NCBI RefSeq assembly: GCF_003634555.1 | Contig: NZ_RBKS01000001.1 | Location: forward strand, 3,224,001 to 3,288,000 | DNA length: 64,000 nt | Direction: 5' to 3' | From: Frondihabitans australicus | GTDB lineage: Bacteria; Actinomycetota; Actinomycetes; Actinomycetales; Microbacteriaceae | Part shown: one piece after another, positions 4,322-61,304 of the stretch | Layout: each line of letters starts with the position of its first letter | Position numbering within the stretch: the stretch's first letter is position 1 | Position numbers and translations under genes: made by a program | Notes under the pieces: generated by a model | The model's database searches: none | Told to the model about the DNA's origin: nothing | What the model saw: only the letters and a program-made list of their open reading frames with translations

Positions 4322-5440
4322 GTGACGGCTACGGCCACCTCGACGCTTCTTTCGGCAGGACCCCTTCTCTTCGCCCCCGACATCTCACCCGACGGCTCGG
4401 CCGTGCTGTTCGCGGCGGATGTCGCGCGGGCTTCGGTGATCGCCTTCGAGCTTCCTGCGGGCGACGGGCCCGCTGCTCCTGCGCCCGCCGCCGTCAGCGT
4501 CGACCGCCTCGGGGCCAAGCTCGCGTCGCTGCTCGGGGTGGAGGCCGACGACGTCGCGATCCGCGGCATGAGCGCGCACCCGGTCACGCACGACGTCTAC
4601 CTCTCCGTCGCGCGGGGGCGCGGCGCCGAGGCAGCGCCCGCGATCGTCCGTGCGACGCCGGCGGGCGACGTCGAGGTGGTCGACGTCGACGGGCTCGCGT
4701 CCACCTCGTTCGCGCTCGACGACGCTCCCTCTCTCGATGACGAGCGCACCGACGTGTGGCTCGACGGAATCGACCCGTCGTCGCAGCCGCGGGAGTTCCA
4801 GGGGATCAGCCTCGACATCGCCCAGGTGCCGCTGCAGCGCTCGACGATCACCGGCCTCGCCTGGGTCGACGGCACGCTCTTCGTCGCCGGGACGAGCAGC
4901 GACGAGTTCACCTCGCGCCTGCGCCGCGTCAGCTACCCGTTCGACGGGGCGGCGATCGAGACGTCGGTCGAGATCTTCCACGTCGACCACGGCAAGTACG
5001 AGACCCAGTCGCCGATCCGCGCGCTGACGGCCTTCGGCGGCGGCACCGGGATCCTCGCGACCTACACCTGCACGCCGGTCGCCTACTTCGCCGTCGACGA
5101 CCTCAAGGGCGAGGGCCTGGTCCGCGGGCGCACGGTCGCCGAGCTCGGGCCGATGAACCAGCCGTTCAGCATCGTCTCGTACGAGCGCGACGGCGAGGAG
5201 TTCCTCCTCGTGTCGAACACCCGCCACCCGCTGCTCCGCATCCCGGCCGCGTCGATCGCCGGTCAGGAGGCCCTCGACGTCCCGATCTCCGACGAGGGCG
5301 CCTCGCGGGGCGTGCCCCGCGACGAGCTGCCGCAGCCCGGCGTCACCTGGATGGCGAACCTCGACCGCTCCAACGTCGTCGTCGTGCAGCAGGAGGGCGG
5401 CGACCTCCACCTCCGCACCCTCCCCGCCGCCGAGCTCTGA
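4322..5440 (+). CDS. Unrecognised beta-propeller-like protein
   Basis: A 372-residue protein beginning with GTG after an AGGAG ribosome site. Repeated short beta blades are suggested (DGSAVLFAAD, HDVYLSV, GTLFVAG, EEFLLVSN, NVVVVQQEGG), giving a WD40/NHL-like propeller, but I cannot name the family. No signal peptide is visible at the start chosen, although secretion from an upstream start cannot be excluded. It is followed immediately by another unrecognised gene, probably in one operon. The DNA motif GCTCCTGCGCCC occurs at 4475. Confidence 0.6.
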   Translation: MTATATSTLLSAGPLLFAPDISPDGSAVLFAADVARASVIAFELPAGDGPAAPAPAAVSVDRLGAKLASLLGVEADDVAIRGMSAHPVTHDVYLSVARGRGAEAAPAIVRATPAGDVEVVDVDGLASTSFALDDAPSLDDERTDVWLDGIDPSSQPREFQGISLDIAQVPLQRSTITGLAWVDGTLFVAGTSSDEFTSRLRRVSYPFDGAAIETSVEIFHVDHGKYETQSPIRALTAFGGGTGILATYTCTPVAYFAVDDLKGEGLVRGRTVAELGPMNQPFSIVSYERDGEEFLLVSNTRHPLLRIPAASIAGQEALDVPISDEGASRGVPRDELPQPGVTWMANLDRSNVVVVQQEGGDLHLRTLPAAEL

Positions 5441-5493
5441 GCGGCGGCGTCGGTCGGCTCGTCCAGGCGTCGTGGCGCCACGGCTCCTTCGTC

Positions 5494-6438
5494 GTGTCGG
5501 GCCTCGACCGGGCGCAGGAGCCGGCGATCGTCCCCCTCGGCGCCCTCTCCCTCGGCCCCGACCTCGTCCCGACCGCGGGGGTGTGGCACCGCTCGAACGA
5601 GGCCGACGTGTTCACCCCGCGCTTCCCGCCGGCACCGGGAGGCGTCTTCGTGGTGCTCGCCGGGCCCCCGTGGAGTGAGCTCGCACGCGTGGCGATCCCG
5701 GCGACCGTTCGGCGCCCGACGACCTCCGTCGTCGCGATCGAGACCGACGTCGACGTCGTGCCGGCGAACCTGCTCCGGTTCGCCGTGACGTTCTCCGGCC
5801 CGATGGACGAGGGGTCCGCCGCCGGGCGGGTCCACCTGCTCGACACCGACGGGGCGGAGATCGACGGTGCCCTCATGGAGATGCCGCCCGAGCTCTGGAG
5901 CCGCGATCGGCGTCGGCTGACGCTGCTGCTCGAGCCCGGGCGGATCAAGCGCGGACTCGTGCCCCACCTCGAGGCGGGCGCGCCCCTTCACGAGGGGGCC
6001 TCGGTGACGCTCGTCGTCGACGACGCACTGCTCGACTCGGCCGGAGCGCCGCTCGTGGAGTCCGCGCGGCGGACGTTCCTCGTGGGCCCGGAGATCCGCT
6101 CGCGCGTCGATCCCGGCCGGTGGCGGGTCACGTGGCCCGACCGCGAGCAGGAGCCCGTGATCGTCGCCTTCGACCGCCCGCTCGACCGGGTGCTCGTTCA
6201 GCGGCACCTGCAGGCGCTCGACGCAGGCGGGGAGCCGGTGGCCGGGAGTGTGGTGGCGGCTCCTGCGGGCTGGTCGTTCACGCCCGACGCCGGCGGCCGT
6301 GTCGCGGCCGTTCGCGTCGATGCGCTCCTCGAGGATCTCGCGGGCAACTCGGTGCGGCGGGTCTTCGACCGCGACCTCGCCTCGCCCGCCGACGACTCCC
6401 TCGCCGCTCCCTTCGTCGAGCTGCGCCCGCCCGCCTAG
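5494..6438 (+). CDS. Unrecognised protein with Ig-like domains
   Basis: About 314 residues of beta-rich sequence with Ig-like or fibronectin-like character: LRFAVTFSGPMDEGS and EPVIVAFDRPLDRVLV resemble bacterial Ig-like 'Big_5' repeats that end in polar loops. The start is uncertain. GTG 5494 is the first standard start codon in frame, but coding similarity seems to extend back to overlap the stop of the upstream gene (a CTG at 5437 is possible). It is probably translated with the propeller gene. No signal peptide or enzymatic motif is seen, and function is unknown. Confidence 0.5.
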   Translation: MSGLDRAQEPAIVPLGALSLGPDLVPTAGVWHRSNEADVFTPRFPPAPGGVFVVLAGPPWSELARVAIPATVRRPTTSVVAIETDVDVVPANLLRFAVTFSGPMDEGSAAGRVHLLDTDGAEIDGALMEMPPELWSRDRRRLTLLLEPGRIKRGLVPHLEAGAPLHEGASVTLVVDDALLDSAGAPLVESARRTFLVGPEIRSRVDPGRWRVTWPDREQEPVIVAFDRPLDRVLVQRHLQALDAGGEPVAGSVVAAPAGWSFTPDAGGRVAAVRVDALLEDLAGNSVRRVFDRDLASPADDSLAAPFVELRPPA

Positions 6439-6485
6439 CCCCCGCCTCGCCTCGCCCCGCCCGTCCCGCCCACCCCGCCCCCACC

Positions 6486-6553
6486 TCCGCCGAGTGCCAA
6501 GAAAGTGCGGATGCACGGAGGCGCGCATCCGCAGTTTCTTGCCACTCGGCGGA
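6486..6553. repeat. Long palindrome, family A copy 1
   Basis: Arms of 29 nt (6486-6514 and 6525-6553) pair with 2 mismatches. The arm contains CGAGTG(G/C)CAAGAAA and TGCGGATGC. It lies between convergent genes. Related copies are at 9141, 13484 and 55790. Bidirectional terminator or REP-like element. Confidence 0.7.
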
Positions 6554-6621
6554 GGAGGTCCTGCGGCGGACGAGGGCGGACGCGGGCCGGCGCGTGCGGA
6601 GGAGGTCCTGCGGCGGACGAG
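6549..6621. repeat. Direct repeat of 26 bp
   Basis: The 26-bp block starting GCGGAGGAGGTCCTGCGGCG occurs at 6549-6574 and again at 6596-6621, 47 bp apart. It partly overlaps the family A palindrome and lies downstream of kup. It looks like a local duplication. Confidence 0.6.
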
Positions 6622-6650
6622 CGGGAGGGCTGGGGCGGCGGGGCGCCGGG

Positions 6651-8618
6651 CTAGAGCGGGACCTCGCGACCGACCACGATCGTGCGGTCGCGGGGCAGGG
6701 CGATGACGTCGAGGGGGTCGGGCGCGAGACGGTCCATGGCGAGGAACAGCATCTGGGCCCACTTGAGCATCCTGCTGCCCCGGTTGTAGCGAGGCACCGG
6801 GGTCGAGATGAAGAACACCGCGCGCGAGGCCGCGAAGTCGTCGAGGCAGCCGTCGTCGACGTGCGCCGCCTCCGTGAGCAGCGCCGTCATCTGCGGGCTC
6901 TCGCGGTAACCGACCTTGGCGGTGACCTGCACGATGCCGTCGCCGAGCGAGGTCACCGAGATGCGATGCGGCAGCCCGCGGGTCGTCGGCACGTCGACGG
7001 TCTTGTAGCTCAGCAGGATGGCGCGCTCCTGCAGGGCATGGTTCTGCGTCACCATCGTGCGCAGCGCGATCGGCACCACGCCGGGGCTGCGCGTGATGAA
7101 GACCGCGTCGCCCGGCACGCGGTGCACTGCTCCCCCGCCGCCGAGCAGGGCGGGCAGCTCGTCGAGCGGCATCTCGTTCAGCCGCCGCCCCGCAGCGATC
7201 CGCCGCAGCCCCACCCACGACGTCGCCATGACGACGAAGGCCACCGCCCCGAGGGTGAGCGGAAGCCAGCCGCCCGAGGTGATCTTGGGCAGGTTCCCGC
7301 CGAGGAAGGCGAGCACCAGCACCAGGATCGCCGACACCACGACCATCCGCAGCGTCCACCTCCGCCCCCGCGCCCACGAGAAGGCGAGATAGATGATCGA
7401 GGTGATCGAGATCGTCGCCGTGACCGCGATCCCGTAGGCGGAGGCCAGCGACGCGCTGCTGCGGAACCCGACGACCACGCCGAGCACCGCGACGGCCAGC
7501 AGGATCGTGATCGCCGGCATGTAGATCTGTCCCTCGCTCTCGGACGACGTGTGCACCGTCTTCACGCGCGGGAACACGCCGAGGTGCCCGGCCTGGTGGA
7601 TCACCGAGAAGGTGCCCGAGATCACCGCCTGCGAGGCGATGATCGTGGCGAGCGTGGCCAGCACGACCATCGGCACGAGAGCCCACGACGGCACGAGGCC
7701 GAAGAACGACGTGCCCGCCTTCGACGGCTCCCGGAGCGCCAGCGACGCCTGCCCGAGGTAGTTGAGCACGAGCGCGGGGAACACCACGAACAGCCAGGCG
7801 CGCGTGATGGCGCGGCGGCCGAAGTGGCCGAGGTCGGAGTAGAGCGCCTCGGCTCCTGTGACCGCCAGCACCACGGCCCCGAGGGCGAGGAAGGCGAGCC
7901 CGGGCTGGTCGACGAAGAATCGCACCACCCACGTCGGCGACAGCGCCTGCAGCACGCTCGGGTCCAGGCCGAGCGACGCGGCGCCCGAGACGGCGAGGGC
8001 GGCGAACCAGAGGATCATGACCGGCCCGTACAGGCGTCCGATGAAGTTCGACCCGAACTTCTGCAGGGCGAACACCCCGAGCAGGATCACGAATGCCGCC
8101 GGAACCACGTACCTCGCGAACCCGGGTTGCACGACCTCCAGCCCCTCGACGGCCGACAGCACCGAGATCGCGGGCGTGATGACGCTGTCGCCGAGGAACA
8201 TCGCGGCGCCGAACATCGCGACGACGGTGAAGACGCCGACCGTGCGGGCCTTCAGACTGCTGCGGCGGAGCAGGCCGAACAGCGCGAGGAGCCCGCCCTC
8301 GCCCCGGTTGTCGGTGCGGAGCAGAAAGCGGACGTAGAGCACCGTCACCACCAGGAAGAGCGACCAGATCAGCGTCGACGTCGCGCCGAGCACGAACTCG
8401 GGGGCGGGGCCGCCCGTGGTCCTCGTGTCGATGCCGAAGGTCGTGCTGGCGGCGTAGATGGGGCTGGTGCCGATGTCGCCGAAGACGACGCCGAGGGCCG
8501 CCAGGATCGGGCCGACGGCCTTCACCGCGCTGCGGCGGCGGCCGGCGGGGGTGGGGGCTTCGCGCGGGGTGGGCTGCCGATCCTGCGCCCTGACGGCCGC
8601 GGTGGCGGGGGTGGTCAC
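6651..8618 (-). CDS. kup: KUP-type potassium:proton symporter
   Basis: A 655-residue protein of the Kup/Trk1 family that imports K+ with protons. It has about 12 membrane segments and a hydrophilic C-terminal domain. The family signature GDIGTSPIY is at residues 47-55, followed by the TDNRGEGGLLAL loop. The GTG start at 8618 is chosen because it overlaps the stop of the upstream gene (GTGA), implying coupled translation, and gives the normal family length. The frame continues upstream only as a shadow of the neighbouring gene. It ends just before the family A palindrome. Confidence 0.93.
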   Translation of the reverse strand: MTTPATAAVRAQDRQPTPREAPTPAGRRRSAVKAVGPILAALGVVFGDIGTSPIYAASTTFGIDTRTTGGPAPEFVLGATSTLIWSLFLVVTVLYVRFLLRTDNRGEGGLLALFGLLRRSSLKARTVGVFTVVAMFGAAMFLGDSVITPAISVLSAVEGLEVVQPGFARYVVPAAFVILLGVFALQKFGSNFIGRLYGPVMILWFAALAVSGAASLGLDPSVLQALSPTWVVRFFVDQPGLAFLALGAVVLAVTGAEALYSDLGHFGRRAITRAWLFVVFPALVLNYLGQASLALREPSKAGTSFFGLVPSWALVPMVVLATLATIIASQAVISGTFSVIHQAGHLGVFPRVKTVHTSSESEGQIYMPAITILLAVAVLGVVVGFRSSASLASAYGIAVTATISITSIIYLAFSWARGRRWTLRMVVVSAILVLVLAFLGGNLPKITSGGWLPLTLGAVAFVVMATSWVGLRRIAAGRRLNEMPLDELPALLGGGGAVHRVPGDAVFITRSPGVVPIALRTMVTQNHALQERAILLSYKTVDVPTTRGLPHRISVTSLGDGIVQVTAKVGYRESPQMTALLTEAAHVDDGCLDDFAASRAVFFISTPVPRYNRGSRMLKWAQMLFLAMDRLAPDPLDVIALPRDRTIVVGREVPL

Positions 8619-43474: not shown

Positions 43475-43506
43475 TTCACACGCGTGAAACAGTCGTTGCG
43501 TAGAAT
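43475..43506 (+). promoter_or_regulatory. Promoter of the pucG operon
   Basis: TAGAAT (43501-43506) lies 6 nt before the GTG of the aminotransferase gene (leaderless). Upstream, TTCACACGCGTGAA (43475-43488) is a near-palindrome with GTGAAAC that may bind a regulator of the ureide genes. Confidence 0.55.
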
Positions 43507-43512
43507 GGCGGC

Positions 43513-44796
43513 GTGAAACAGACTTTTCAGCCGATCGCACCGCCCGCACGTCTGCTCATGGGCCCCGGCCCGATCAACGCCGACCCCCGGGTCCTGCGCG
43601 CCATGTCGGCCCAGCTGGTCGGTCAGTACGACCCCTGGATGACCCGTGCCATGGACGAGACGCAGGCCCTCTACCGCCAGGTCTTCAAGACCGCGAACGA
43701 GCAGACCATGCTCGTCGACGGCACCAGCCGCGCCGGCATCGAGGCTGCCCTCGTCTCGCTCATCGAGCCGGGCGACCGCGTGCTCGTGCCAATCTTCGGG
43801 CGCTTCGGGCACCTCCTGCGCGAGATCGCCGAGCGCGCAGGAGCCGAGGTGCACGTCATCGAGACCGACTGGGGCCAGGTCTTCCCGCTCCGTGCGATCG
43901 AAGAGGCGATCACCCGCGTGCGACCCAAGGTGCTCGCCGTCGTGCACGGCGACACCTCCACGACGGTCGCGCAGCCCCTCGACGGCCTCGGCGAGATCTG
44001 CGCCCGCGAGGGAGTCCTCTTCTACACCGACGTCACGGCGAGCATCGGCGGCAACGAGTTCCCGACCGACGACCTGGGCCTGGACGCCGTCACCGCGGGC
44101 CTGCAGAAGTGCCTCGGCGGCCCGTCGGGCTCCTCGCCGGTGACGTTCTCGCAGAAGGCCGTCGACGTGATCTATGGCCGGAAGTCGGTCGAGGCGGGCA
44201 TCCGCGGCGAGGGCGACGTGGCCGCCGCCGACCCGATCCGCTCGAACTACTTCGATCTCGCCATGATCTTCGACTACTGGGGCCCGAAGCGCCTCAACCA
44301 CCACACCGAGGCCACGACGATGCTCTACGGGGCGCGAGAGTGCGCCCGCCTCCTCGTGGAGGAGGGCATCGACGACGCGGTGGCCCGCCACGAGCTGCAC
44401 GGCCGAGCCATGCTCGAGGGCGTCCGCGGCCTCGGGCTCGACGTCTTCGGCGACACCTCGCACAAGATGAACAACGTGGTCGCCGTCGTGATCCCCGACG
44501 GCATCGACGGCGACGGTGCCCGAAGCGCCCTGCTCGACGACTTCGGCATCGAGATCGGCACCTCCTTCGGGCCGCTGCACGGCAAGGTGTGGCGCATCGG
44601 CACCATGGGCTACAACGCCCGGAAGGACGCCGTGCTCACGACGCTGTCTGCGCTCGAGTCGGTGCTCCGGCGCGGCGGCGTCTCAGTCACTGCGGGCGGG
44701 GGAGTGGGCGCGGCGTACGACGTGTACGACGACGTCGTGTCGCCGGCTCCTGCGCCCGTCGTCACCGAGTCGCTCGACGCCGGGAGCGCGCGGTGA
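43513..44796 (+). CDS. pucG: (S)-ureidoglycine-glyoxylate aminotransferase-like enzyme
   Basis: A 427-residue class V PLP aminotransferase. The PLP lysine is Lys199 in GLQKCLGGPSG, with Asp173 in YTDVTASIGG and substrate-site Asn/Arg in the N-terminal LLMGPGPINADP. PucG transfers the amino group from ureidoglycine to glyoxylate, giving oxalurate and glycine. Next to it is allantoate hydrolase (GTGA overlap), which makes ureidoglycine, so the pathway assignment is stronger than for the related serine- or alanine-glyoxylate enzymes. Confidence 0.88.
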   Translation: MKQTFQPIAPPARLLMGPGPINADPRVLRAMSAQLVGQYDPWMTRAMDETQALYRQVFKTANEQTMLVDGTSRAGIEAALVSLIEPGDRVLVPIFGRFGHLLREIAERAGAEVHVIETDWGQVFPLRAIEEAITRVRPKVLAVVHGDTSTTVAQPLDGLGEICAREGVLFYTDVTASIGGNEFPTDDLGLDAVTAGLQKCLGGPSGSSPVTFSQKAVDVIYGRKSVEAGIRGEGDVAAADPIRSNYFDLAMIFDYWGPKRLNHHTEATTMLYGARECARLLVEEGIDDAVARHELHGRAMLEGVRGLGLDVFGDTSHKMNNVVAVVIPDGIDGDGARSALLDDFGIEIGTSFGPLHGKVWRIGTMGYNARKDAVLTTLSALESVLRRGGVSVTAGGGVGAAYDVYDDVVSPAPAPVVTESLDAGSAR

Positions 44797-47150: not shown

Positions 47151-48476
47151 CTAGCGGCGGCGCAGCAGCTGCCCGCGCGCCTGGTCGCCGACGAGGGCGC
47201 CGGCCAGCCACGCGCGCGACACCTCGCCACGCAGCTCGGTGCCGTCGAACGCGCTCACCGGGTTCTTGTGGGCGAGCTCGCTCGCCGCGACGGTGAAGGT
47301 GCGGTCGGGCGCGAAGGCCACGAGGTCGGCCTTCGAGCCGGGCGCGATGCGGCCGAGGTGGCCGAGGCCCACGAGGTCGGCGGTGTTCGTCGACATCCAC
47401 TTCACCACGGTCGACAGGGGGATCCTGCGGGCCGCCGCCCCCGTCCAGACCGCTCGGAACGACAGCTCGAGCCCCGAGATGCCGCCCCAGGCGAGCTCGA
47501 AGTCGCCGTCGCCGGCGAACTTCAGCGCCGCCGTCGAGGGGGAGTGGTCGCTGGCGACGAGGTCGATGGTGCCGTCGACGAGGGCGCCCCAGAGCAGCTC
47601 CTGGTTGGCGTGGTCGCGGATCGGCGGGCAGCACTTGTACTGCGTCGCGCCGTCGTCGATGTGCTCTTCGTCGAACGTGAGGTAGTGCGGGCAGGTCTCG
47701 ACGGTGAGGCGCAGGCCCTCGTCTTTCGCGCGGCGGATCATGGGCAGCGCGGCGGCCGACGACAGGTGCAGGATGTGCGCCCGGCCTCCGGTCCGTCGCA
47801 CGGCGTCGATCACGTGGGCGATCGCCGACTCCTCCGACTCGTCGGGGCGCGAGCGCACGAAGGCGGCGTACGAGGTGCCCTCGGTCGCGGGGGCGGCGTC
47901 GAGGGTCGCAGGATCCTCCGCATGCACGATCAGCAGACCGTCGAACGCGGCGATCTCGTCCATCGCCTGATTCAGCTGCTCGGTCGACAGGTGTGGGAAC
48001 TCGTCGACGCCCGACGGCGAGAGGAACGCCTTGAAGCCGAAGACCCCGGCCTCCCAGAGCTCGCGAAGGTGTCCGAGCGACGACGGGATCGCGCCGCCCC
48101 AGAAGCCGACGTCGATGACGGCCTGCGGTGCCGCGGCCTCGCGCTTGAGGGCGAGCGCCTCCGGCGTCGTGGTCGGCGGGATGCTGTTGAGCGGCATGTC
48201 GACGATCGTGGTGACGCCGCCGTTCGCCGCCGCGCGGGTGGCGGTGGCGAAGCCCTCCCACTCGGTGCGGCCCGGCTCGTTGACGTGCACGTGCGTGTCG
48301 ACGATTCCGGGGATCAGCACCTCGTCGTCGGCGAGCTGGACGTCCGACTCCGTCTCGACGATGGCGTCGGGCTCCAGGATCGCGACGACCCGGTCTCCGA
48401 TCACGGCGACGGCCGCCGGCTGGAACTCCCCGTCGACGAGGACTCGGCTGCTGCGGACGACGAGGTCGTAGTTCAT
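47151..48476 (-). CDS. allB: Allantoinase
   Basis: A 441-residue dihydroorotase-like amidohydrolase that opens allantoin to allantoate. The metal ligands are His62 and His64 in DTHVHVNEPGRTEWEGF, the carboxylated Lys149 is in GFKAFLSP, and SDHSPS near residue 310 provides the last Asp. ATG is 6 nt after TACGAT on the minus strand (leaderless). It faces the allC/pucG operon, completing the allantoin route. A conserved element upstream is shared with the creatininase gene. Confidence 0.92.
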   Translation of the reverse strand: MNYDLVVRSSRVLVDGEFQPAAVAVIGDRVVAILEPDAIVETESDVQLADDEVLIPGIVDTHVHVNEPGRTEWEGFATATRAAANGGVTTIVDMPLNSIPPTTTPEALALKREAAAPQAVIDVGFWGGAIPSSLGHLRELWEAGVFGFKAFLSPSGVDEFPHLSTEQLNQAMDEIAAFDGLLIVHAEDPATLDAAPATEGTSYAAFVRSRPDESEESAIAHVIDAVRRTGGRAHILHLSSAAALPMIRRAKDEGLRLTVETCPHYLTFDEEHIDDGATQYKCCPPIRDHANQELLWGALVDGTIDLVASDHSPSTAALKFAGDGDFELAWGGISGLELSFRAVWTGAAARRIPLSTVVKWMSTNTADLVGLGHLGRIAPGSKADLVAFAPDRTFTVAASELAHKNPVSAFDGTELRGEVSRAWLAGALVGDQARGQLLRRR

Positions 48477-48482
48477 GCCCCG

Positions 48483-48514
48483 ATCGTAGGCCCCGCGCTT
48501 TTCGAGCACGTTTC
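48483..48514 (-). promoter_or_regulatory. allB promoter and shared upstream element
   Basis: On the minus strand CGAAACGTGC-TCGAAAAGCGCG precedes a TACGAT -10 box (48483-48488) 6 nt before the ATG. Nearly the same 30-bp element is at 50577-50610 before the creatininase gene, suggesting a common regulator. Confidence 0.65.
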
Positions 48515-48531
48515 GTGCCGTGCCGCGGCGG

Positions 48532-49044
48532 TCAGTTCGCGGCGATGCGCAGCGCTTCGAGGTCGCGGGCCGAGAATGCGATCAGGGTGACGGTGTCGAG
48601 CGCGTCCGGGTGCTCAGCGATCCACGAGCGGATCGTGTCGACGGCGACACTCGATGCATCGGCCATCGGGTAGCCGTAGGCGCCGGTCGAGATGGAAGGG
48701 AAGGCGATGGTGCGGTAGTCGGCTCCTGCGGCCAGGTCGAGGGAGCTCCGGTAGCACGACGCGAGCAGGACCTCGTTCTCATCGGCGGAATGCTGCCGGT
48801 AGATGGGGCCGACAGCGTGCACGATCGCCTTGGCCGTCGTGATCTCGAACGCGGGTGTCATCTTCGCCTCGCCCTGCGCGGCGCCGTGAAGTCGACGACA
48901 TGCCTCGAGGAGCCGTGGCCCCGCCGCACGGTGGATCGCGCCGTCCACGCCGCCGCCACCCACGAGGCTCGAGTTCGCTGCATTCACGATGACGTCGGCT
49001 CGAAACGAGGTGATGTCTGCCTGTTGCACGGCGAGCTCGGTCAT
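48532..49044 (-). CDS. Macro-domain ADP-ribose deacetylase
   Basis: A 170-residue macro domain (YmdB/MacroD type) that removes O-acetyl from ADP-ribose or ADP-ribose from proteins. VIVNAANSSLVGGGGVDGAIH (about residues 18-38) and FPSISTGAYGYP (about 118-129) form the ADP-ribose pocket. It lies between allB and an oxidoreductase gene without evident links to ureide use. The inverted repeat at its start may be a binding site. Confidence 0.9.
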   Translation of the reverse strand: MTELAVQQADITSFRADVIVNAANSSLVGGGGVDGAIHRAAGPRLLEACRRLHGAAQGEAKMTPAFEITTAKAIVHAVGPIYRQHSADENEVLLASCYRSSLDLAAGADYRTIAFPSISTGAYGYPMADASSVAVDTIRSWIAEHPDALDTVTLIAFSARDLEALRIAAN

Positions 49045-49070
49045 TCGTCCGTTCTACCCGACGGACGAAT
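49043..49070. promoter_or_regulatory. Inverted repeat at macro-domain gene start
   Basis: ATTCGTCCGT (49043-49052) and ACGGACGAAT (49061-49070) are perfect arms around 8 nt. The repeat overlaps the macro-domain ATG and lies beyond the stop of the PNPOx-like gene, so it could be an operator or a terminator. Confidence 0.45.
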
Positions 49071-49105
49071 CCGTCGGCACGAGGCGGCAGCGGCGGCGCC
49101 ACAGA

Positions 49106-49702
49106 TCAGCCGGACAGGAGCCGCGACTGCCAGCCGCCCGTGTCGGCGGACCGCGTGAAGCGCAGCCGCCGCGAAGCCGTGCCGACACCCGGCGTCCAGA
49201 ACGTCAGCTCGGTGGGCCGCACGACCACGCCGAACCAGGTGTCGGGCTGCTCGAAGCCGTCGGGGTGGGCGGCGGCGAACTCGGCCCACTGCTCGCGGCG
49301 CACCGAGTCCGGCAGCTCGGCGAACGCCGGAGTGTTCTGCCACGCGAGCTGCTGCAGGTACGGCGACCGGGCCCGGTACGCCCACGCCGACTCGTCGGGA
49401 GGGGCGATGGCGGCGACTCCGCGCACGACGAGCTGCCGGGGGAGTTCGGGCCAGAGCAGGGTGAGGGCGACGTGCGGTTCGGCTGCCAGCTGGGCGACTT
49501 TCGCTGATCCTGAGTCGGTGTGAAAGTACAGCCCCTGCTCGTCGTATTCGGTGAGCAGCACGGCTCGGGCGTCGGGGCGGCCGGCAGGAGTGATCGTCGA
49601 CAGCGTCATCAGCGGGCGATCGGGCGCGTCGTTCGACGGGAGCCAGGCCTGGAGCAGCGCCCACGCCTCGTCGGGCATCGGCCTGCCCGCAGTGAACGTC
49701 AC
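49106..49702 (-). CDS. Pyridoxamine 5'-phosphate oxidase-like flavoprotein
   Basis: A 198-residue FMN-dependent oxidase related to PdxH. FMN-binding stretches RPDARAVLLTEYDEQGLYFHT and QLAAEPHVALTLLWPELPRQL precede the C-terminal RRLRF. The substrate-binding C-terminal block of true PdxH (RLHDR...) is only partly present, so the role may be other than PLP salvage. GTG overlaps the creatininase stop (GTGA). PLP supply for PucG is an attractive but unproven link. Confidence 0.8.
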   Translation of the reverse strand: MTFTAGRPMPDEAWALLQAWLPSNDAPDRPLMTLSTITPAGRPDARAVLLTEYDEQGLYFHTDSGSAKVAQLAAEPHVALTLLWPELPRQLVVRGVAAIAPPDESAWAYRARSPYLQQLAWQNTPAFAELPDSVRREQWAEFAAAHPDGFEQPDTWFGVVVRPTELTFWTPGVGTASRRLRFTRSADTGGWQSRLLSG

Positions 49703-50571
49703 GGACTCGATGGTGGCACGTCGAGCAGCGGCGCGGTGTCGACCACTCCGTGCAGCGGCTCGGTACCGGGCAGGGCGGGGTGGTCGAAGGCGGCGATCTC
49801 GGCGAGGGCCGCGACCCCGGCGTCGACGGAGCGACGGAACAGCGTGGCTCCCCACGCAGCGGTCGCGCCCGACGCGTCGCCGACGACCCCGGCGGGCCCG
49901 AAGTCGTTCGACAGCCAGCCGAAGTGCACCGGGCCTCCGTTGAACTTCACGTGCTGAAGCGACTCCATGTGCGGCGGCACCCATCGCGACGCCCGCGACA
50001 GGTCGACCAGGTCGGGCCGCAGGTGCAGGATCATGGACGTCTCGCTGTGGCCACCGTGCACGCCGAACCCGTGCTCGTCGGGGCCGGAGAGACCCGGGCC
50101 GCCGTCGGCACCGCGCACACCGTCGCCCGACGGGATCGTCGGCCCCATCAGGAACGTCCGCAGCCCGAAACGCCGCCGGATCTCGCGCAGGGCGACCTGC
50201 AGCAGCGCGATGTTGCCGCCGTGGCCGTTGTAGAACACGAGCGTCTTCGCGGGGGTGGCCGCGATCGACCGCCCGATGTCGACGACCGTGTCGAGCAGCG
50301 TCGTCGCATTCAGCCACACGGTTCCGGGCGCCCAGAAGTGCTCGTCCGACTTCGTGTAGGCAAGGGCCGGCAGGATCCACACGTCCTGCCCCGCGCTCGC
50401 CGCCTCGTCGACGATCGCCGCCGAGATGAGGTCGGCCATGAGCCAGTCGGTCGAGAGCGGCAGGTGGGGGCCGTGGTGCTCGATGGCTCCGGTCGGCAGC
50501 ACCACGATCGAGCCCGCCCCGAGGGTGGAGGCGAGCGCGGGGCCGGAGAGGTGGACGAGTTCGCGGTTCAC
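49699..50571 (-). CDS. Creatininase-family amidohydrolase
   Basis: A 290-residue member of the creatinine amidohydrolase fold. Metal ligands are Glu31, His33 and Asp42 in AIEHHGPHLPLSTDW, with NGHGGN and HGGHSETSM in the later half. Family members hydrolyse creatinine, formamidopyrimidine or cyclic ureides. In this catabolic block the substrate is probably a purine-related ring or formamide. GTG start is 6 nt after a TACGCT box, and the allB-like element precedes it. Confidence 0.85.
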   Translation of the reverse strand: MNRELVHLSGPALASTLGAGSIVVLPTGAIEHHGPHLPLSTDWLMADLISAAIVDEAASAGQDVWILPALAYTKSDEHFWAPGTVWLNATTLLDTVVDIGRSIAATPAKTLVFYNGHGGNIALLQVALREIRRRFGLRTFLMGPTIPSGDGVRGADGGPGLSGPDEHGFGVHGGHSETSMILHLRPDLVDLSRASRWVPPHMESLQHVKFNGGPVHFGWLSNDFGPAGVVGDASGATAAWGATLFRRSVDAGVAALAEIAAFDHPALPGTEPLHGVVDTAPLLDVPPSSP

Positions 50572-50576
50572 AGGTC

Positions 50577-50610
50577 GAGCGTAGGCCGCGCGCTTTTCGG
50601 GCACGTTTCG
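50577..50610 (-). promoter_or_regulatory. Creatininase promoter, element shared with allB
   Basis: Minus-strand CGAAACGTGC-CCGAAAAGCGCG then GCCTACGCT. TACGCT (50578-50583) is 6 nt before the GTG. It matches the allB upstream element except for one indel and one substitution. Confidence 0.65.
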
Positions 50611-50695: not shown

Positions 50696-51130
50696 TCAGT
50701 CGACGACCACGGTCTGCGAAAGCGTGGTGATTTCTCCGAGGCGGTCTTCCGAAGCGGTGAAGGTCACGGTGTCGCCCGACTTCAGACCGTTGGGCAGCAG
50801 GACGGTGGCCCTCCAGCCGCGGAGTGTGTACGCGGCGCCTTCGGTCACCTGACCGTTCACGCTGACATTTACCGTGACGATGGCGTTGTACGCGCCGGTG
50901 CCAGACAGGGTCAGGGCCCGCGAGCCCGACAGGGCGGACGACATCGCACGGAAGGTGAAGGGCGTCGTGTCGGCGGGGTCGACGGGCGCGACGAAGCCGG
51001 GACCGCCGCCGCAGGTGGACGGGGCGCACGAAGCAGTGTCGACCGTGTTTGCCGCGTTGGCCGCCACCGGAGTCAGGATGAGCGCGGCGCCGATGCCTAC
51101 TGCGGCGAGGCCCTTGAGGATGGTGTTCAT
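50696..51130 (-). CDS. Small secreted protein of unknown function
   Basis: A 144-residue exported protein. The signal peptide LKGLAAVGIGAALILTPVAANA ends at about residue 26. The mature part has CAPSTC near its N-terminus and a beta-rich Ig-like body (TLSGTGAYNAIVTVNVSVNG). A strong AGAAAGG site precedes the ATG, and a clear hairpin follows the stop, so it is a monocistronic, well-expressed unit. Two cysteines could form a disulphide. I do not recognise a family. Confidence 0.75.
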   Translation of the reverse strand: MNTILKGLAAVGIGAALILTPVAANAANTVDTASCAPSTCGGGPGFVAPVDPADTTPFTFRAMSSALSGSRALTLSGTGAYNAIVTVNVSVNGQVTEGAAYTLRGWRATVLLPNGLKSGDTVTFTASEDRLGEITTLSQTVVVD

Positions 51131-51200
51131 GGTTGTCTGCCTTTCTGTCCAGGCTCTCCGGACACAGATAGTCAACCAGTGAAATATTACGTGATACTGC

Positions 51201-52541
51201 CTACGAGACCTTCGCCCCGGTCGAGAGCGTCGGCGCGACGAGCTTGCCGGGGTTCAGGAGGCCGAGCGGGTCGGTCGTCGCCGCCAGCTCGCGAGTGCGG
51301 GCGGGCTCGAAGTCGACGAACCACTGGTGCGGGTTGTGGTAGCCGACCCCGAGCTCCTGCAACTTCGCGAACCCCGCGTAGACGTCGTCGGCCGAGGTGT
51401 AGCGGCCCGCGAGCATGCCGATGGGACGGCCCTGGGAGGTCTCGATGTGGAGCATGCCTCCGTCGTACACGGCGTGCACCTCGTCGATCCGGTCGATGAG
51501 GGCGTCGCCCGAGACCTCGACGTGGAAGTACGTGTCGGGGTAGGCCTTCTGCAGCCACTCGATGGGGTGGTTGTACGAGATCATGCTCAGCTTCATCGCG
51601 GTCTGCGGGCCCTCGCGGACGTCTTCGACGCGCCCGCCGGCGGCCTCGACCAGCTCGGTGGCGCGGGCGACGGTCGCCTCGTCGAGAATGGCGCGCAGCG
51701 ACGCGCGGCCGCGGGGGATCGCGGGGTCGGCCGGCAGGGCGTCGGCCAGCGTCGGCAGGTCTCCCGAGACGAGGCGGGGCGCAGGATCCAGCGCACCGAA
51801 CGACCGCATCAGCGGCAGCAGCTGCTCGAAGGTGTCGAAGCTCGCGAAGAACCCTCTCCACTCCTGCAGCGGCTCGAGCCGGATGGTGGCGCGGGCGATG
51901 ATGCCCGCCGTGCCGTAATTGTGCACGTACGGCTGCGCCTCGTCGCCCTCGACGTGCACCAGGGTCGCGTCGGGCACGGCGTGGACGACGTCGAGCGCCA
52001 CGACGAAGCCCTGGTGGTTCGAGCCGTGCTTGATCGAGCCTGTGCCGCCGGAGCCGCCGGAGAGGAACCCGCCGATGGTCGACTGCGCCGTCGACGGATA
52101 CAGGAGGATCTGCTGGCCGGTCTTCGCAGCGGCCTGTTCGAGCGAGACCATCGTCGCGCCGGCCTCGGCCGTGAGCGTTCCGTCGCCGACCTCGACGATG
52201 GCGCGGGCGCGGGTCATGTCGAGCACCAGCCCGCCGTCGAACGGGATCGCCTGACCGTAGTTGCCGGTGCCCTTGCCGCGCGGGGTGATCGGCACGCCGT
52301 GGCGGACGGCGGCGCCGACGACGAGGGCGATCTCGTCGGCCGTGGCGGGGTAGGCGACGAGATCGGCGAGCCCGAGCGGCAGCTGCTGGCTGATCACGGG
52401 CGAGAGGCGCGAGCCGTCGACGGACGCCTTCTCGCGCGCGGCGAGCTCGACCGAGACGCCGCGCTCGCCGAGCAGCTCGCGCAGCTCGGCCTCGAGGGCG
52501 GCGAGAGCCTCGGGTGCGACGGGGGTGGCGTGTGTGGGCAT
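51201..52541 (-). CDS. FAD-linked oxidase (GlcD/VAO type)
   Basis: A 446-residue flavoenzyme. The FAD-binding PCMH domain spans about residues 40-225, with VVGAAVRHGVPITPRGKGTGNYGQ and GGFLSGGSGGTGSIKHGSN. The rest is a GlcD-type substrate domain. It would oxidise a 2-hydroxy acid such as lactate or glycolate, or a ring alcohol. Its ATG overlaps the stop of the upstream amidohydrolase gene (TGATG), so they work in one transcript. Confidence 0.82.
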   Translation of the reverse strand: MPTHATPVAPEALAALEAELRELLGERGVSVELAAREKASVDGSRLSPVISQQLPLGLADLVAYPATADEIALVVGAAVRHGVPITPRGKGTGNYGQAIPFDGGLVLDMTRARAIVEVGDGTLTAEAGATMVSLEQAAAKTGQQILLYPSTAQSTIGGFLSGGSGGTGSIKHGSNHQGFVVALDVVHAVPDATLVHVEGDEAQPYVHNYGTAGIIARATIRLEPLQEWRGFFASFDTFEQLLPLMRSFGALDPAPRLVSGDLPTLADALPADPAIPRGRASLRAILDEATVARATELVEAAGGRVEDVREGPQTAMKLSMISYNHPIEWLQKAYPDTYFHVEVSGDALIDRIDEVHAVYDGGMLHIETSQGRPIGMLAGRYTSADDVYAGFAKLQELGVGYHNPHQWFVDFEPARTRELAATTDPLGLLNPGKLVAPTLSTGAKVS

Positions 52542-53872
52542 CAGGCGTCCTTCGGGTCGGCGAGCAGGGGGTGCGCAGGAGCCGCGGCGCCCGGCCCGGC
52601 AGGCGAGGCGACACTCCGCGAGGTGGACGACTCCGCGACGAGCGCCCCGCGGTGGATCACGAAGCGGTCGGCGGGCGCGTTGGCGACGACGTCGGCGAGC
52701 GAGGTGCCGCGGACCGCGAGCAGCTCGGCCTGCGCTCCCACGACGACGCCGGCCGCGGGCAGCGCGAGCACTTCACGCGCGGAAGTGCTGACGAGACCGT
52801 AGGCCTCGTCGATCGTGAGGTGCCCGGCGGTCACGAGCAGCATCGCGGTCTCGAGGGCGTCGCTGCGCCCGAGCGGGTTGAACGGGTCGCGCACGTTGTC
52901 GGCTCCCGCGGCGACGCGGGCGCCGGCGTCGAGCAGCTGCCGCACCGGCGCGAGGCCGCGCGGCATCGAGACGTCGTCGCCCCAGCCCTGCAGGTAGAGG
53001 TTGGTGATCGGGTTGGCGATGACGCCGATGCCGGCGGCGACGGTCGCGGCGATCGTCTCGTCGCGTGCTGCGGCGGGCGCCGTGCCGAGTCGCACGCAGT
53101 GGCCGGCGCTGACATTCACCGGCAGGAGTCCGTCCGCGAGATCGGCCTCGCGCCAGCCGGCGACGATCCGGGCGAACTCGTCCAGCGTGACGGGGCCGTG
53201 CAGGCTCTCGTCGGTGTGCAGGTCGACTCCGGCGCGGCGGGCTCGGGCCAGGGCGAGGAGCCTCGTGAGGTCGGCTGTCGGATCCTGCGCCAGATGCGGC
53301 GAGCCGCCGACGAGGTCGACGCCCAGGTCGAGCGCCGCCTCGATGTCTCGCGTGGGTACGTCGGGCCCCGCGAGCGCGACGAGTTCGATGTCGATCAGGT
53401 CGCGCAGCTCGTCGCGCACCCGCACGAGGGCCTCGGCGCCCCGGAGGGGCTGATCGCCGAGCAGGATGTCGAGGTGCGTGCGGATCGCGGTCGTGCCCTG
53501 GCCGAGCATCCGAAGCGCCTGCTCGCGGGCGCGGTCGGCGATGTCGTCGACGGTCATGGTCGCCGCGTACTCGCGCCACGACGCGATCGCGGCGCGCAGG
53601 TCGCCCATCGGCGGGCGGATCGCCTCGTACGAGAGGGCCTTGTCGAGGTGCGCGTGCGGTTCGGCCGGGGCGGTCAGCAGCAGGTGGCCGGTGAGGTCGA
53701 GGGTCGACGCGGGGGAGTCGGGCGTGCGGGTCTCGGATCCTGCGCCTTGAGCCGAGGCACCCGCGGTCTCGACCCTCGCGACCCGGTGGCCGTCGAGCGT
53801 GACGTCGACGAGGCGCCCGTCGGGCAGCGTCGCGTTCGTGAGCCGGGTGAGCTGGCGGGGGAGTGCGGTCAC
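52541..53872 (-). CDS. Cytosine deaminase-like amidohydrolase
   Basis: A 443-residue metal-dependent hydrolase of the CodA/AtzC group. LLLTAPAEPHAHLDKALSYE carries the His-x-His metal site, with VDLHTDESL and VSAGHCVRLG further on and GADNVRDPF holding the last Asp. Substrate is a cyclic amide, perhaps cytosine, isoguanine or a hydantoin. GTG start. It faces the XRE-cupin gene across a gap with a CGTTTCA/TGAAACG inverted repeat. Confidence 0.85.
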   Translation of the reverse strand: MTALPRQLTRLTNATLPDGRLVDVTLDGHRVARVETAGASAQGAGSETRTPDSPASTLDLTGHLLLTAPAEPHAHLDKALSYEAIRPPMGDLRAAIASWREYAATMTVDDIADRAREQALRMLGQGTTAIRTHLDILLGDQPLRGAEALVRVRDELRDLIDIELVALAGPDVPTRDIEAALDLGVDLVGGSPHLAQDPTADLTRLLALARARRAGVDLHTDESLHGPVTLDEFARIVAGWREADLADGLLPVNVSAGHCVRLGTAPAAARDETIAATVAAGIGVIANPITNLYLQGWGDDVSMPRGLAPVRQLLDAGARVAAGADNVRDPFNPLGRSDALETAMLLVTAGHLTIDEAYGLVSTSAREVLALPAAGVVVGAQAELLAVRGTSLADVVANAPADRFVIHRGALVAESSTSRSVASPAGPGAAAPAHPLLADPKDA

Positions 53873-53959
53873 GGGGCCTCGAGACGGGGAGGGGGCAGAA
53901 TGTTGATGGAACCAACACGCTCGAATCTAGGCAGAGCGCGTTTCCGGGTCGTAACGTGA

Positions 53960-53981
53960 CCGTTTCAACCCCGTGAAACGG
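53960..53981. promoter_or_regulatory. Operator between deaminase and XRE-cupin genes
   Basis: CCGTTTCA-ACCCCG-TGAAACGG (about 53960-53981) is an 8-bp-arm inverted repeat midway between divergent genes. The GTGAAAC half resembles the pucG upstream site. Confidence 0.55.
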
Positions 53982-58750: not shown

Positions 58751-58773
58751 TGTACCAAATGTACTGATTGTAC
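58751..58773 (-). promoter_or_regulatory. Iterated TGTAC operator
   Basis: TGTAC occurs at 58751, 58760 and 58769, exactly 9 bp apart, overlapping the -10 box of the antitoxin gene. Regular spacing suggests co-operative binding of Phd-like dimers. Confidence 0.65.
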
Positions 58774-58821
58774 GAATCGGTCGAAACGACGCCGACACAC
58801 GGGGTCGCTACAGTGAGGCCG

Positions 58822-59328
58822 ATGACCGACGCGAACGCCAACGACTTCCGCGACAAGCTCCGCACCGCCCTCCACGTCGAGCGCTGGGTCGACGACGTCG
58901 CGGCGAAGGCCCCCTTCAGCGACCTCGACTCGCTCGTGATGGCCGCGTACGACGCCGCCACGCCTCTCACCCCGGCCGAGATCGACGAGGCCGTCGCCGC
59001 CCACCCGCGCATCGGCGAGAAGCCGGCCGGCGCGACGCAGTCGGCGGCGCTGAGCCGCTCCGAGCAGTCCGCTCCCGACGCCGACGACGAGCAGCTCGCC
59101 GCCGCGATCGCGCAGGGGAACGCCGACTACGAAGCGCGGTTCGGGAGGGTGTTCTTGATTCGCGCCGCGGGGCGGACGAGGGCCGAGGTGCTCTCCGAGC
59201 TCCTGCGCCGGTTGGAGCTCGACGACCAGACCGAGCTCGAGATCGTGGGAGAGCAGCTGCGCGACATCGCCCTTCTCCGCATCGAGACCCTGTTCTCGCA
59301 GGGAATCGTCGCCGGAGGTGCCGCGTGA
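58822..59328 (+). CDS. uraD: OHCU decarboxylase
   Basis: A 168-residue helical enzyme that decarboxylates 2-oxo-4-hydroxy-4-carboxy-5-ureidoimidazoline to (S)-allantoin. The family signature AHPRIGEKPAG is at residues 60-70, with RAAGRTRAEVLSELLRRLE towards the end. TACAGT is 7 nt before the ATG (leaderless). Its stop overlaps the uraH start (GTGA), so the two finish the urate-to-allantoin step together. Confidence 0.92.
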   Translation: MTDANANDFRDKLRTALHVERWVDDVAAKAPFSDLDSLVMAAYDAATPLTPAEIDEAVAAHPRIGEKPAGATQSAALSRSEQSAPDADDEQLAAAIAQGNADYEARFGRVFLIRAAGRTRAEVLSELLRRLELDDQTELEIVGEQLRDIALLRIETLFSQGIVAGGAA

Positions 59329-59648
59329 GCCACGTCACCACCCACGTGCTGGACTCGAGCATCGGCCGGCCCGCCGGCGGCGTCTACGTCGAGCTGCAGG
59401 AGCCGACCGGTCGCGTCCTCGGCACCGGCGTCACCAACGCAGACGGCCGGGTCCCCTCGCTCGGCCCCGACGTGCTCGACGACGGCGCATACCGGCTCGT
59501 GTTCGACACCGGCGCGTACTTCGCCGCGACCGGCACGGCGACGTTCTATCCGTCGGTCACGCTCGACTTCCAGGTGTCGGGCGATCCGCACTATCACGTG
59601 CCGCTGCTGCTGAGCCCCTTCGCCTACAGCACCTACCGCGGCTCGTAG
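59325..59648 (+). CDS. uraH: 5-hydroxyisourate hydrolase
   Basis: A 107-residue transthyretin-like hydrolase that opens 5-hydroxyisourate to OHCU. The active site residues lie in the N-terminal HVTTHVLDSSIGRPA and the C-terminal signature YSTYRGS, which ends the protein. GTG overlaps the uraD stop. It is convergent with the guanine deaminase gene across a perfect 19-bp palindrome. Confidence 0.93.
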   Translation: MSHVTTHVLDSSIGRPAGGVYVELQEPTGRVLGTGVTNADGRVPSLGPDVLDDGAYRLVFDTGAYFAATGTATFYPSVTLDFQVSGDPHYHVPLLLSPFAYSTYRGS

Positions 59649-59658
59649 TTCTCCCGGC

Positions 59659-59750
59659 TGTCGCGAATTCGCGACCGGAATCGCGTTCCGACCTCACCCG
59701 TTACTGCCGTTCGGCGGTGTTTTGCCCGAATCGGTCGCGAATTCGCGACA
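59659..59750. repeat. Long palindrome, family C copy 2
   Basis: TGTCGCGAATTCGCGACCG (59659-59677) and its exact reverse complement (59732-59750) flank a ~54-nt loop. Each arm is itself partly palindromic (TCGCGAATTCGCGA). It lies between uraH and the convergent deaminase gene. Confidence 0.75.
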
Positions 59751-59757
59751 CCCCGCG

Positions 59758-60312
59758 TCAGTACGCCGTGCGGGCGGCAGCCGTCAGCCACGTGTCGAAC
59801 GGCTGGGCGGCGTGTGATGGCCGTACGGTGTCGACGCGGAGCTCCCACTCCGACCGGTCGCGCGCGAACAGCTCGTAGAACGCGAGGTCGTCGAACCCAC
59901 CCCGCGCGGCGTCGTACCGGTCGGCGGCGAACACCACGCGATCGACGCGCGACCACAGCGCGGCGGCCAGGCACAGGGGGCACGGCTCGCACGACGTGTA
60001 GAGCGTGCACCCGTCGAGGGCGAACGATCCCACCACCTGGCACGCGGCCCGAATGGCGACGACCTCGGCGTGGGCCGTCGGATCGAGGTCGCGGGTGACG
60101 CGGTTCTGCCCCTCGGCGATCACCGTTCCCTCGGGGCCGACGATCACGGCCCCGAAGGGCCCGCCGCCGTCGCCGACGTTCGCCGTGGCGAGGTCGATGG
60201 CGCGTGCGAGGTGGGCGGCGTCGGCTGTCGCCGATCCTGCAGCAGGATCCGACACCCCGCGGGGCGCGAGGTCGCCCGTCGCCGCCCGGCCCGCCGGGCC
60301 CGCGGAGGTCAT
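59758..60312 (-). CDS. Guanine deaminase-like nucleoside deaminase
   Basis: A 184-residue zinc deaminase of the CDA fold. HAEVVAIRAAC is the catalytic motif, and SCEPCPLCLAA gives the PCxxC zinc cysteines. The C-terminal DDLAFYELFARDRSE resembles GuaD of Bacillus subtilis, which turns guanine into xanthine. ATG overlaps the uricase stop (ATGA), so it is translated with it. A double copy of the GATCCTGC motif at 60232-60245 encodes the Ala-rich N-terminus. Confidence 0.87.
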   Translation of the reverse strand: MTSAGPAGRAATGDLAPRGVSDPAAGSATADAAHLARAIDLATANVGDGGGPFGAVIVGPEGTVIAEGQNRVTRDLDPTAHAEVVAIRAACQVVGSFALDGCTLYTSCEPCPLCLAAALWSRVDRVVFAADRYDAARGGFDDLAFYELFARDRSEWELRVDTVRPSHAAQPFDTWLTAAARTAY

Positions 60313-61220
60313 GCCAGCCCCGCCGAGAACCGCCAGGCCTCGCCTGCGTCGGGGGCGTCGTCGCGCGTGACCTGCGCCTCGATGAGGCCGTAGGGGCGGT
60401 CGGCGGCCCAGAACACCTCCTGCTTGTTCTCGATGCCGAAGCGGCCGATGTCGTAGGTGAAGTGGTGCTTGTTGGGGGCCTTGAGGCGCACCTCGGCGAT
60501 GAAGTCGAAGGCCTCGAGGACGGCCTTGCCCATGGCCCAGAGGGTCTGCTGCAGGGCGAGCGAGTGCAGGGTCGCGAAGTGCTTCACCATGATCGCCTTG
60601 ATCTCGGGGTAGACGGCCTCGAAGTCGATGTCGTCGAGCGACTGCCCGGCCGTTGGCGCGAACCGCCACTGCGCCTGCAGGGCCGTCGCCATGATGCGGT
60701 CCTTCTCCTCGGGGAGGGTCGTGTACTCGTCCTTGAGGAAGCCGGTGAACTCCGACCCGGTGCTCTTGAGCAGCACGAGGTCTTTGAGGCCCCCGATGAC
60801 GTACTCGCCGGTCGCGTCGACCGTGATCGCGGCGGTGCGGACCTCCTGGCCCTTGCGCAGCCAGGTGTGGTCGTGCTCGGCTCCGTCGACGACGGCGCGC
60901 TCCCACGCGTACTCCTCGACCTCGATGCGGGCGCCCTCGACCGGGTCGACGTCGTGCACGAAGTGGTGCGCGAGCTCCAGGCCGAAGGCCTCCGGCGAGG
61001 TGATGCCCTTCGACTTCGCGAACGCGTACGCCGTGTTCTTCTGCGTGTCGGTCGGCAGCACGTTCGACTGGTCGCCCTCGAGATACGCGTTCTGGAACGG
61101 GCCGCGCAGGGCGGTCGTCACGTTGAGGTCGCGGATCTCGTGCCGAGGGGTGTCGCGCACGATGCGGACGAGTCGTGATTCCGCTTTGCCGTACTGGATG
61201 TCTCCGAGGATGATCGCCAT
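60309..61220 (-). CDS. Urate oxidase
   Basis: A 303-residue cofactor-free uricase that oxidises urate to 5-hydroxyisourate. Catalytic Lys12 (IQYGKAE), Thr57-Asp58 (LPTDTQKNT) and the QAQWRF/NKHHFTYD substrate loops are all present. No leaderless -10 is seen; TACATT lies 25 nt upstream. It is cotranslated with guanine deaminase and faces away from the DUF3105 gene. With uraD and uraH it completes urate to allantoin. Confidence 0.95.
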   Translation of the reverse strand: MAIILGDIQYGKAESRLVRIVRDTPRHEIRDLNVTTALRGPFQNAYLEGDQSNVLPTDTQKNTAYAFAKSKGITSPEAFGLELAHHFVHDVDPVEGARIEVEEYAWERAVVDGAEHDHTWLRKGQEVRTAAITVDATGEYVIGGLKDLVLLKSTGSEFTGFLKDEYTTLPEEKDRIMATALQAQWRFAPTAGQSLDDIDFEAVYPEIKAIMVKHFATLHSLALQQTLWAMGKAVLEAFDFIAEVRLKAPNKHHFTYDIGRFGIENKQEVFWAADRPYGLIEAQVTRDDAPDAGEAWRFSAGLA

Positions 61221-61304
61221 GCGCGCAGTCTGTCAACAAAATGTAACCGGGGTGTTTCGGCGCGGTTCCCGATTGCTTTCAGGTGAAACCAATAGGTTCG
61301 CCAC

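Follow-up and report, generated by a model that had tools for sequence, protein, structure and literature searches.

Shared promoter elements before the allantoinase and creatininase genes of Frondihabitans australicus are candidate GlnR-dependent promoters

Results

Two unrelated genes share a 35-bp element directly before their start codons

Why should an allantoinase gene and a creatininase gene carry nearly the same DNA immediately upstream of their coding sequences, and which regulator might read it? We analysed this question in a 64,000-nt stretch of the Frondihabitans australicus genome (NZ_RBKS01000001.1, positions 3,224,001-3,288,000; genome 4.04 Mb), which we refer to as the window. 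The features concerned are as follows.

48481..48515, minus strand: predicted allB promoter, with half-sites GAAAC (48510-48514) and GAAAA (48499-48503) and -10 TACGAT (48483-48488)
47151..48476, minus strand: allB, allantoinase (TIGR03178, 542.8 bits, above cut-off), ATG 6 bp after the -10
50576..50610, minus strand: predicted creatininase promoter, with half-sites GAAAC (50605-50609) and GAAAA (50594-50598) and -10 TACGCT (50578-50583)
49699..50571, minus strand: creatininase-family hydrolase (PF02633, 201.3 bits), GTG 6 bp after the -10

The initial annotation described near-identical minus-strand elements before two genes unrelated in sequence, and both observations hold. The likeness extends over 35 bp with three mismatches (T/C, G/C and A/C; 48515->48481 versus 50610->50576), and the AllB and creatininase proteins are unrelated (best BLASTP E 0.59; Pfam Amidohydro_1 versus Creatininase). 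Upstream of the element, likeness is at background, with 6-9 of 20 positions identical in each of ten 20-bp steps. Downstream, in the first coding bases, 13 of 20 and then 11 of 20 positions are identical. We rejected a duplication extending into the coding sequence, since the first-codon likeness is probably native to each protein: arginine is the third codon in the creatininases of 29 relatives, and AllB keeps Asp-Leu-Val near the N-terminus in most relatives (both judged by eye). A macro-domain gene (O-acetyl-ADP-ribose deacetylase-like; 48532-49044) lies directly upstream of allB; among 18 stretches from relatives, it occurs in one only (G003).

Both elements read GAAAC-n6-GAAAA, with half-sites 11 bp apart, followed by 10 bp and a TANNNT hexamer, so that the second half-site begins 15 bp before the -10. 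The start codon lies 6 bp past the hexamer in each case (TACGAT and ATG for allB, TACGCT and GTG for the creatininase), as expected of leaderless promoters; the initial annotation had called both genes leaderless.

The initial annotation had also suggested searching the genome for the element. The 22-bp copies, CGAAACGTGCTCGAAAAGCGCG at allB (48494-48515, minus strand) and CGAAACGTGCCCGAAAAGCGCG at the creatininase (50589-50610, minus strand), have no third match with up to three mismatches in the window (mean 0 across 100 shuffles), and at the same threshold the whole 4.04 Mb holds these two sites only (reversed control, 0). We therefore gave up the 22-bp element as a unit; what recurs elsewhere is the pair of half-sites with the -10 alone.

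The layout recurs at nitrogen genes across the genome

A loose form of this layout, AC-n6-GAAA-n11-TANNNT, has 10 matches in the genome and none in the reversed control. Four lie in the purine cluster, before pucG, allB, the creatininase gene and a cytosine-deaminase-like gene. The other six lie before glnA (TIGR00653, above cut-off), a RutA-like gene whose 270.9 bits fall short of the RutA cut-off, genes for an NtaA/DmoA-family monooxygenase and an aldehyde dehydrogenase, an adenosine deaminase gene scoring 209 bits, slightly under its cut-off, and the gene of a Sir2-type deacetylase, the one match of the 10 for which an obvious nitrogen link is absent. With up to one mismatch allowed, the window holds seven matches, one of them at 34803, against 0.52 expected, and none of 100 shuffles reached seven.

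Without the -10, the box GWNAC-n6-GAAAM has 42 matches in the genome and four in the control. Two of these sites are at glnA, and one starts 145 bp before the amtB start. We inspected 39 of the 42 with a crude gene caller, which flagged 17 as lying within a possible coding frame; not all 42 are therefore operators. We also trained a matrix on 23 sites (15 from cytosine-deaminase-like genes and five from pucG in relatives, two from glnA and one from amtB), a set that excluded every allB and creatininase site. Scanning the window with it ranked the cytosine-deaminase-like promoter first and placed both the allB and the creatininase elements among the best eight. This score covers the box without the -10; eight window sites reach it, against an average of 1.8 for 12 random sequences, and we set the scan aside as too weak alone.

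The layout is also in excess across 100 genomes of the family. The 95 genomes whose GlnR scores above cut-off have 462 matches (control, 216), and the five lacking GlnR have 35 (control, 31). Among the 95, the 77 larger genomes have 381 against 120 and the 18 small ones 81 against 96; because the excess differs with genome size in this way, the GlnR-less genomes are confounded as a control.

Several promoters of the purine cluster carry the same box

Besides the two elements above, the window contains the following boxes and genes.

43475..43506, plus strand: predicted promoter of the pucG-like aminotransferase, TTCAC-n6-GAAAC, -10 TAGAAT (43501-43506), GTG at 43513, 6 bp on
53924..53977, minus strand: predicted promoter of the cytosine-deaminase-like gene, TTCAC-n6-GAAAC-n6-GTTAC-n6-GAAAC (53940-53977), -10 TAGATT (53924-53929)
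52541-53872, minus strand: cytosine-deaminase-like amidohydrolase, upstream of the creatininase, in relatives too
51201-52541, minus strand: FAD-linked oxidase, upstream of the creatininase, in relatives too
58783..58814, plus strand: possible promoter of the OHCU decarboxylase, weaker match GAAAC-n6-GACAC, -10 TACAGT (58809-58814), ATG at 58822
61254..61269, minus strand: box before uricase, weaker match GGAAC-n6-GAAAC, with TANNNT absent at +15

With the genes for OHCU decarboxylase, HIU hydrolase and uricase (58768-61220), the path from urate to allantoin is complete next to allB, allC and pucG.

We compared 18 stretches of 18 kb from relatives. Of the 17 that contain the cytosine-deaminase-like gene, 15 have a strict box before it, and a sixteenth locus (G082) has a weaker GTTAC-n6-GAAAT with a -10. 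At pucG, a strict box was found in five of the seven loci with the gene start inside the stretch. Half-sites and spacing are kept at both promoters in relatives, other genera included. Across the 18 stretches and two named loci, TANNNT lies at exactly +15 in 23 of 29 strict boxes and at another offset in one; two of the 29 stem from one genome counted twice (L022, Frigoribacterium sp. PhB160, equals G040). In L104 (709-724), L105 (4510-4525) and L107 (10069-10084), GTAAC-n6-GAAAC is followed by GTGCGAC where the TANNNT hexamer would be expected; in L107 the next gene is xdhC-like by eye.

The allB and creatininase boxes are distributed differently. Among 15 stretches with allB, a same-direction box within 200 bp was found in one (G003, by a relaxed pattern only), an opposite-direction box by the loose pattern in seven (five of them congeners), and no box in either direction in seven. 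The G003 site reads GAAAC-n6-GTAAA-n10-TACCAT, and 7 of its 16 spacer bases match the window. A search of the genome collection for AllB returned seven loci only (off-frame query). At the creatininase, no box was found within 110 bp of any of 29 homologues inspected. Judged by this distribution (1 of 15 and 0 of 29, against the widespread boxes at the other two genes), the allB and creatininase boxes appear to be young, and the pucG and cytosine-deaminase-like boxes old.

The elements largely fit published GlnR boxes

The genome encodes GlnR (PF21695, 146.8 bits; cut-off 27) about 0.6 Mb from the cluster. The closest solved chain is 8hih (E 2.5e-78), whose DNA-binding part is very similar; 4o1h, named GlnR, matches at E 1.4e-26. 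Reported GlnR boxes are gTnAc-n6-GaAAc in S. coelicolor and GAAAC-n6-GTATC in S. avermitilis (PMC10704036), and AC-n9-AC in M. smegmatis, where adenines and spacing are described as essential for binding (PMC3662644); both sources give A at position 4 of each half-site as required. The allB and creatininase elements have 5-bp half-sites 6 bp apart with A at position 4 of each, and the same motif stands before the core nitrogen genes glnA and amtB. The consensus C at position 5 of the b-site is absent from both elements (GAAAA). We regard this base as part of the consensus rather than as defining, its own effect not being separated in the available text of PMC3662644.

The same half-sites and -10 spacing at glnA, at unlinked genes and at cluster genes of other genera point to GlnR as the likely regulator, and each element is probably a GlnR-dependent promoter. 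GlnR protomers would bind the tandem 11-bp half-sites GAAAC-n6-GAAAA, which would replace a -35 box, and bound GlnR would contact RNA polymerase held at the TANNNT -10; nitrogen scarcity would thus switch on a leaderless mRNA. Since its units carry GlnR-type promoters, the cluster would answer to nitrogen status through (i) aminotransferase-allantoate amidohydrolase-rpiR, (ii) allB, (iii) the creatininase and (iv) cytosine-deaminase-like-FAD oxidase. OHCU decarboxylase-HIU hydrolase and uricase are probably under the same control. Here we infer GlnR binding, activation rather than repression, leaderless starts and the operon groupings.

A local regulator is better matched by a separate palindrome

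The initial annotation had put forward the shared element as an operator of the RpiR or the XRE-cupin regulator of the cluster; on this reading, the regulator might sense a purine-pathway metabolite. That it is an operator or promoter element is very probable; the choice of regulator is not supported. Genes for both regulators do lie in the cluster, in relatives as well as here (xre in 15 and rpiR in nine of 18 stretches, some clipped by the stretch end), and the likeness of the two elements takes in spacer bases outside the half-sites. However, the operator of a local regulator is expected to be confined to its own cluster, and this layout is found at glnA and at further unlinked genes as well. 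The same-direction allB box is missing in seven of the eight relatives with allB, rpiR and xre, the eighth being G003. We dropped this reading because the layout recurs at unlinked nitrogen genes; with GlnR encoded in the genome, GlnR is the likelier reader of a layout that recurs genome-wide, and control by RpiR or XRE-cupin seems improbable.

A third consideration is a palindrome that suits the XRE gene better.

53901..53917, no strand assigned: palindrome TGTTGNNNNNNTCAACA, just downstream of the cytosine-deaminase-like -10, candidate operator of a local regulator

TGTTGNNNNNNTCAACA has a single match in the whole genome, immediately past the -10 of the gene that diverges from xre. The cytosine-deaminase-like gene is present in 17 relatives, and 14 of them have the palindrome, namely 14 of the 15 with xre and neither of the two without; one of these two, G082, keeps its weaker GlnR-type box and -10 although both xre and the palindrome are absent from its stretch. 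Because it follows the presence of xre, TGTTGNNNNNNTCAACA is a better XRE-cupin candidate than the allB/creatininase element and is likely the operator of that regulator. At L007 (own genome, 2195785-2195816), the aldehyde dehydrogenase promoter reads GAAAC-n6-GTTAC-n6-GAAAC, and an everted ATCAACAT/ATGTTGAT repeat seen by eye behind its -10 echoes the half-site of the TGTTGNNNNNNTCAACA palindrome.

Another OmpR-type regulator of direct repeats, PhoP or MtrA, might instead bind the elements mainly or compete with GlnR. Both are reported on GlnR sites in Streptomyces (PMC6988585), and the genome has 14 Trans_reg_C matches. Against this, the half-sites are GAAAC/GTTAC and not the PHO repeat GTTCACC, and the target genes are mostly nitrogen genes; we consider a main role for PhoP or MtrA unlikely, though some competition with GlnR would be compatible with these observations.

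The creatininase gene may have acquired its own promoter

In all 17 stretches from relatives with both genes, the creatininase match begins at most 116 bp from where the FAD-oxidase match ends. The two genes are separated in the window by about 630 bp and one open reading frame.

50696..51175, minus strand: 159-aa open reading frame with a secreted-looking N-terminus and without a Pfam family, situated between the FAD-oxidase and creatininase genes

A tblastn search with this frame at E 1e-15 found no match in any of the 18 stretches compared. In the window the cytosine-deaminase-like gene adjoins the FAD-oxidase gene, unlike in L103, where a transporter permease, a binding protein and a short-chain dehydrogenase (by eye; 5353-8300) lie between them.

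Most simply, the ancestral creatininase would have been driven from the operon head, and it has a predicted promoter of its own here. The allB and creatininase promoters agree at 17 of 24 non-core positions, whereas 44 other promoter pairs agree at a mean of 8.1 (sd 2.8, maximum 15). The two next-best pairs both involve the cytosine-deaminase-like promoter, and spacers starting GTG are common at that gene in relatives; copying is therefore plausible and unproved. We infer that, once the open reading frame had separated it from the operon, the creatininase came under a promoter of its own, perhaps copied from allB. The fuller account, in which insertion of a small gene separated the creatininase from its GlnR-driven operon and control was regained through a 35-bp copy of the promoter module of allB, is tentative and somewhat doubtful. 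If true, it would be a promoter transplant traceable within one cluster.

The agreement of 17 of 24 non-core positions would also fit a recent copy of a regulator-free, constitutive promoter, yet G003 keeps the half-sites and -10 though 9 of 16 spacer bases differ, and the layout is common to glnA, which makes this reading highly improbable; promoter copying as such can be compatible with GlnR control.

Discussion

Two look-alike promoters become, on this analysis, a testable nitrogen regulon in Microbacteriaceae, with a sharp search rule: the second half-site begins 15 bp before the -10. The analysis also tells a probable GlnR site apart from a likely local operator, TGTTGNNNNNNTCAACA, and places a creatininase-family enzyme without an assigned substrate under probable nitrogen control. 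The initial annotation had tied the creatininase to allantoin use. The shared neighbourhood is conserved, with allB and the creatininase together in 14 of 18 stretches. The link specific to allantoin fares less well, as three of the 17 creatininase-bearing 18-kb stretches hold no allB. Probable membership of the GlnR regulon would link the creatininase to the scavenging of nitrogen in general rather than to allantoin in particular.

Nitrogen control of purine and creatininase-type genes is not new. GlnR peaks in M. smegmatis are reported to include a putative allantoicase and allantoin permeases (PMC3662644), and nitrogen limitation is reported to raise purine-breakdown genes and a creatininase-subfamily gene (PMC4617892). 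A limited literature search, judged by titles, found no GlnR study in Microbacteriaceae. Control by a GlnR-type promoter looks like the ordinary kind, and the curiosity is the creatininase's own promoter.

The elements resemble the actinomycete GlnR box (S. coelicolor, M. smegmatis, S. avermitilis, S. erythraea) in the 11-bp repeat and A at position 4, in the presence of the box upstream of glnA and amtB here too, and in the association with allantoin and purine genes reported for GlnR peaks in M. smegmatis. They differ in the GAAAA second half-site, the -10 at a fixed 15 bp and the close start codons.

In class II activation of the PhoB/OmpR type, the pho box lies 10 bp before the -10. The arrangement here is alike, with tandem 11-bp repeats standing in for the -35 box at a distance of 10 bp from the -10; the regulator and the sequence differ, and phosphate genes there are nitrogen genes here. 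PDB 8hih, which we take to be the GlnR transcription activation complex, is the best solved match to the GlnR of this genome. A GlnR activation complex is described in a review (PMC10704036). Its promoter has four half-sites, whereas allB and the creatininase have two clear ones and the cytosine-deaminase-like gene has four.
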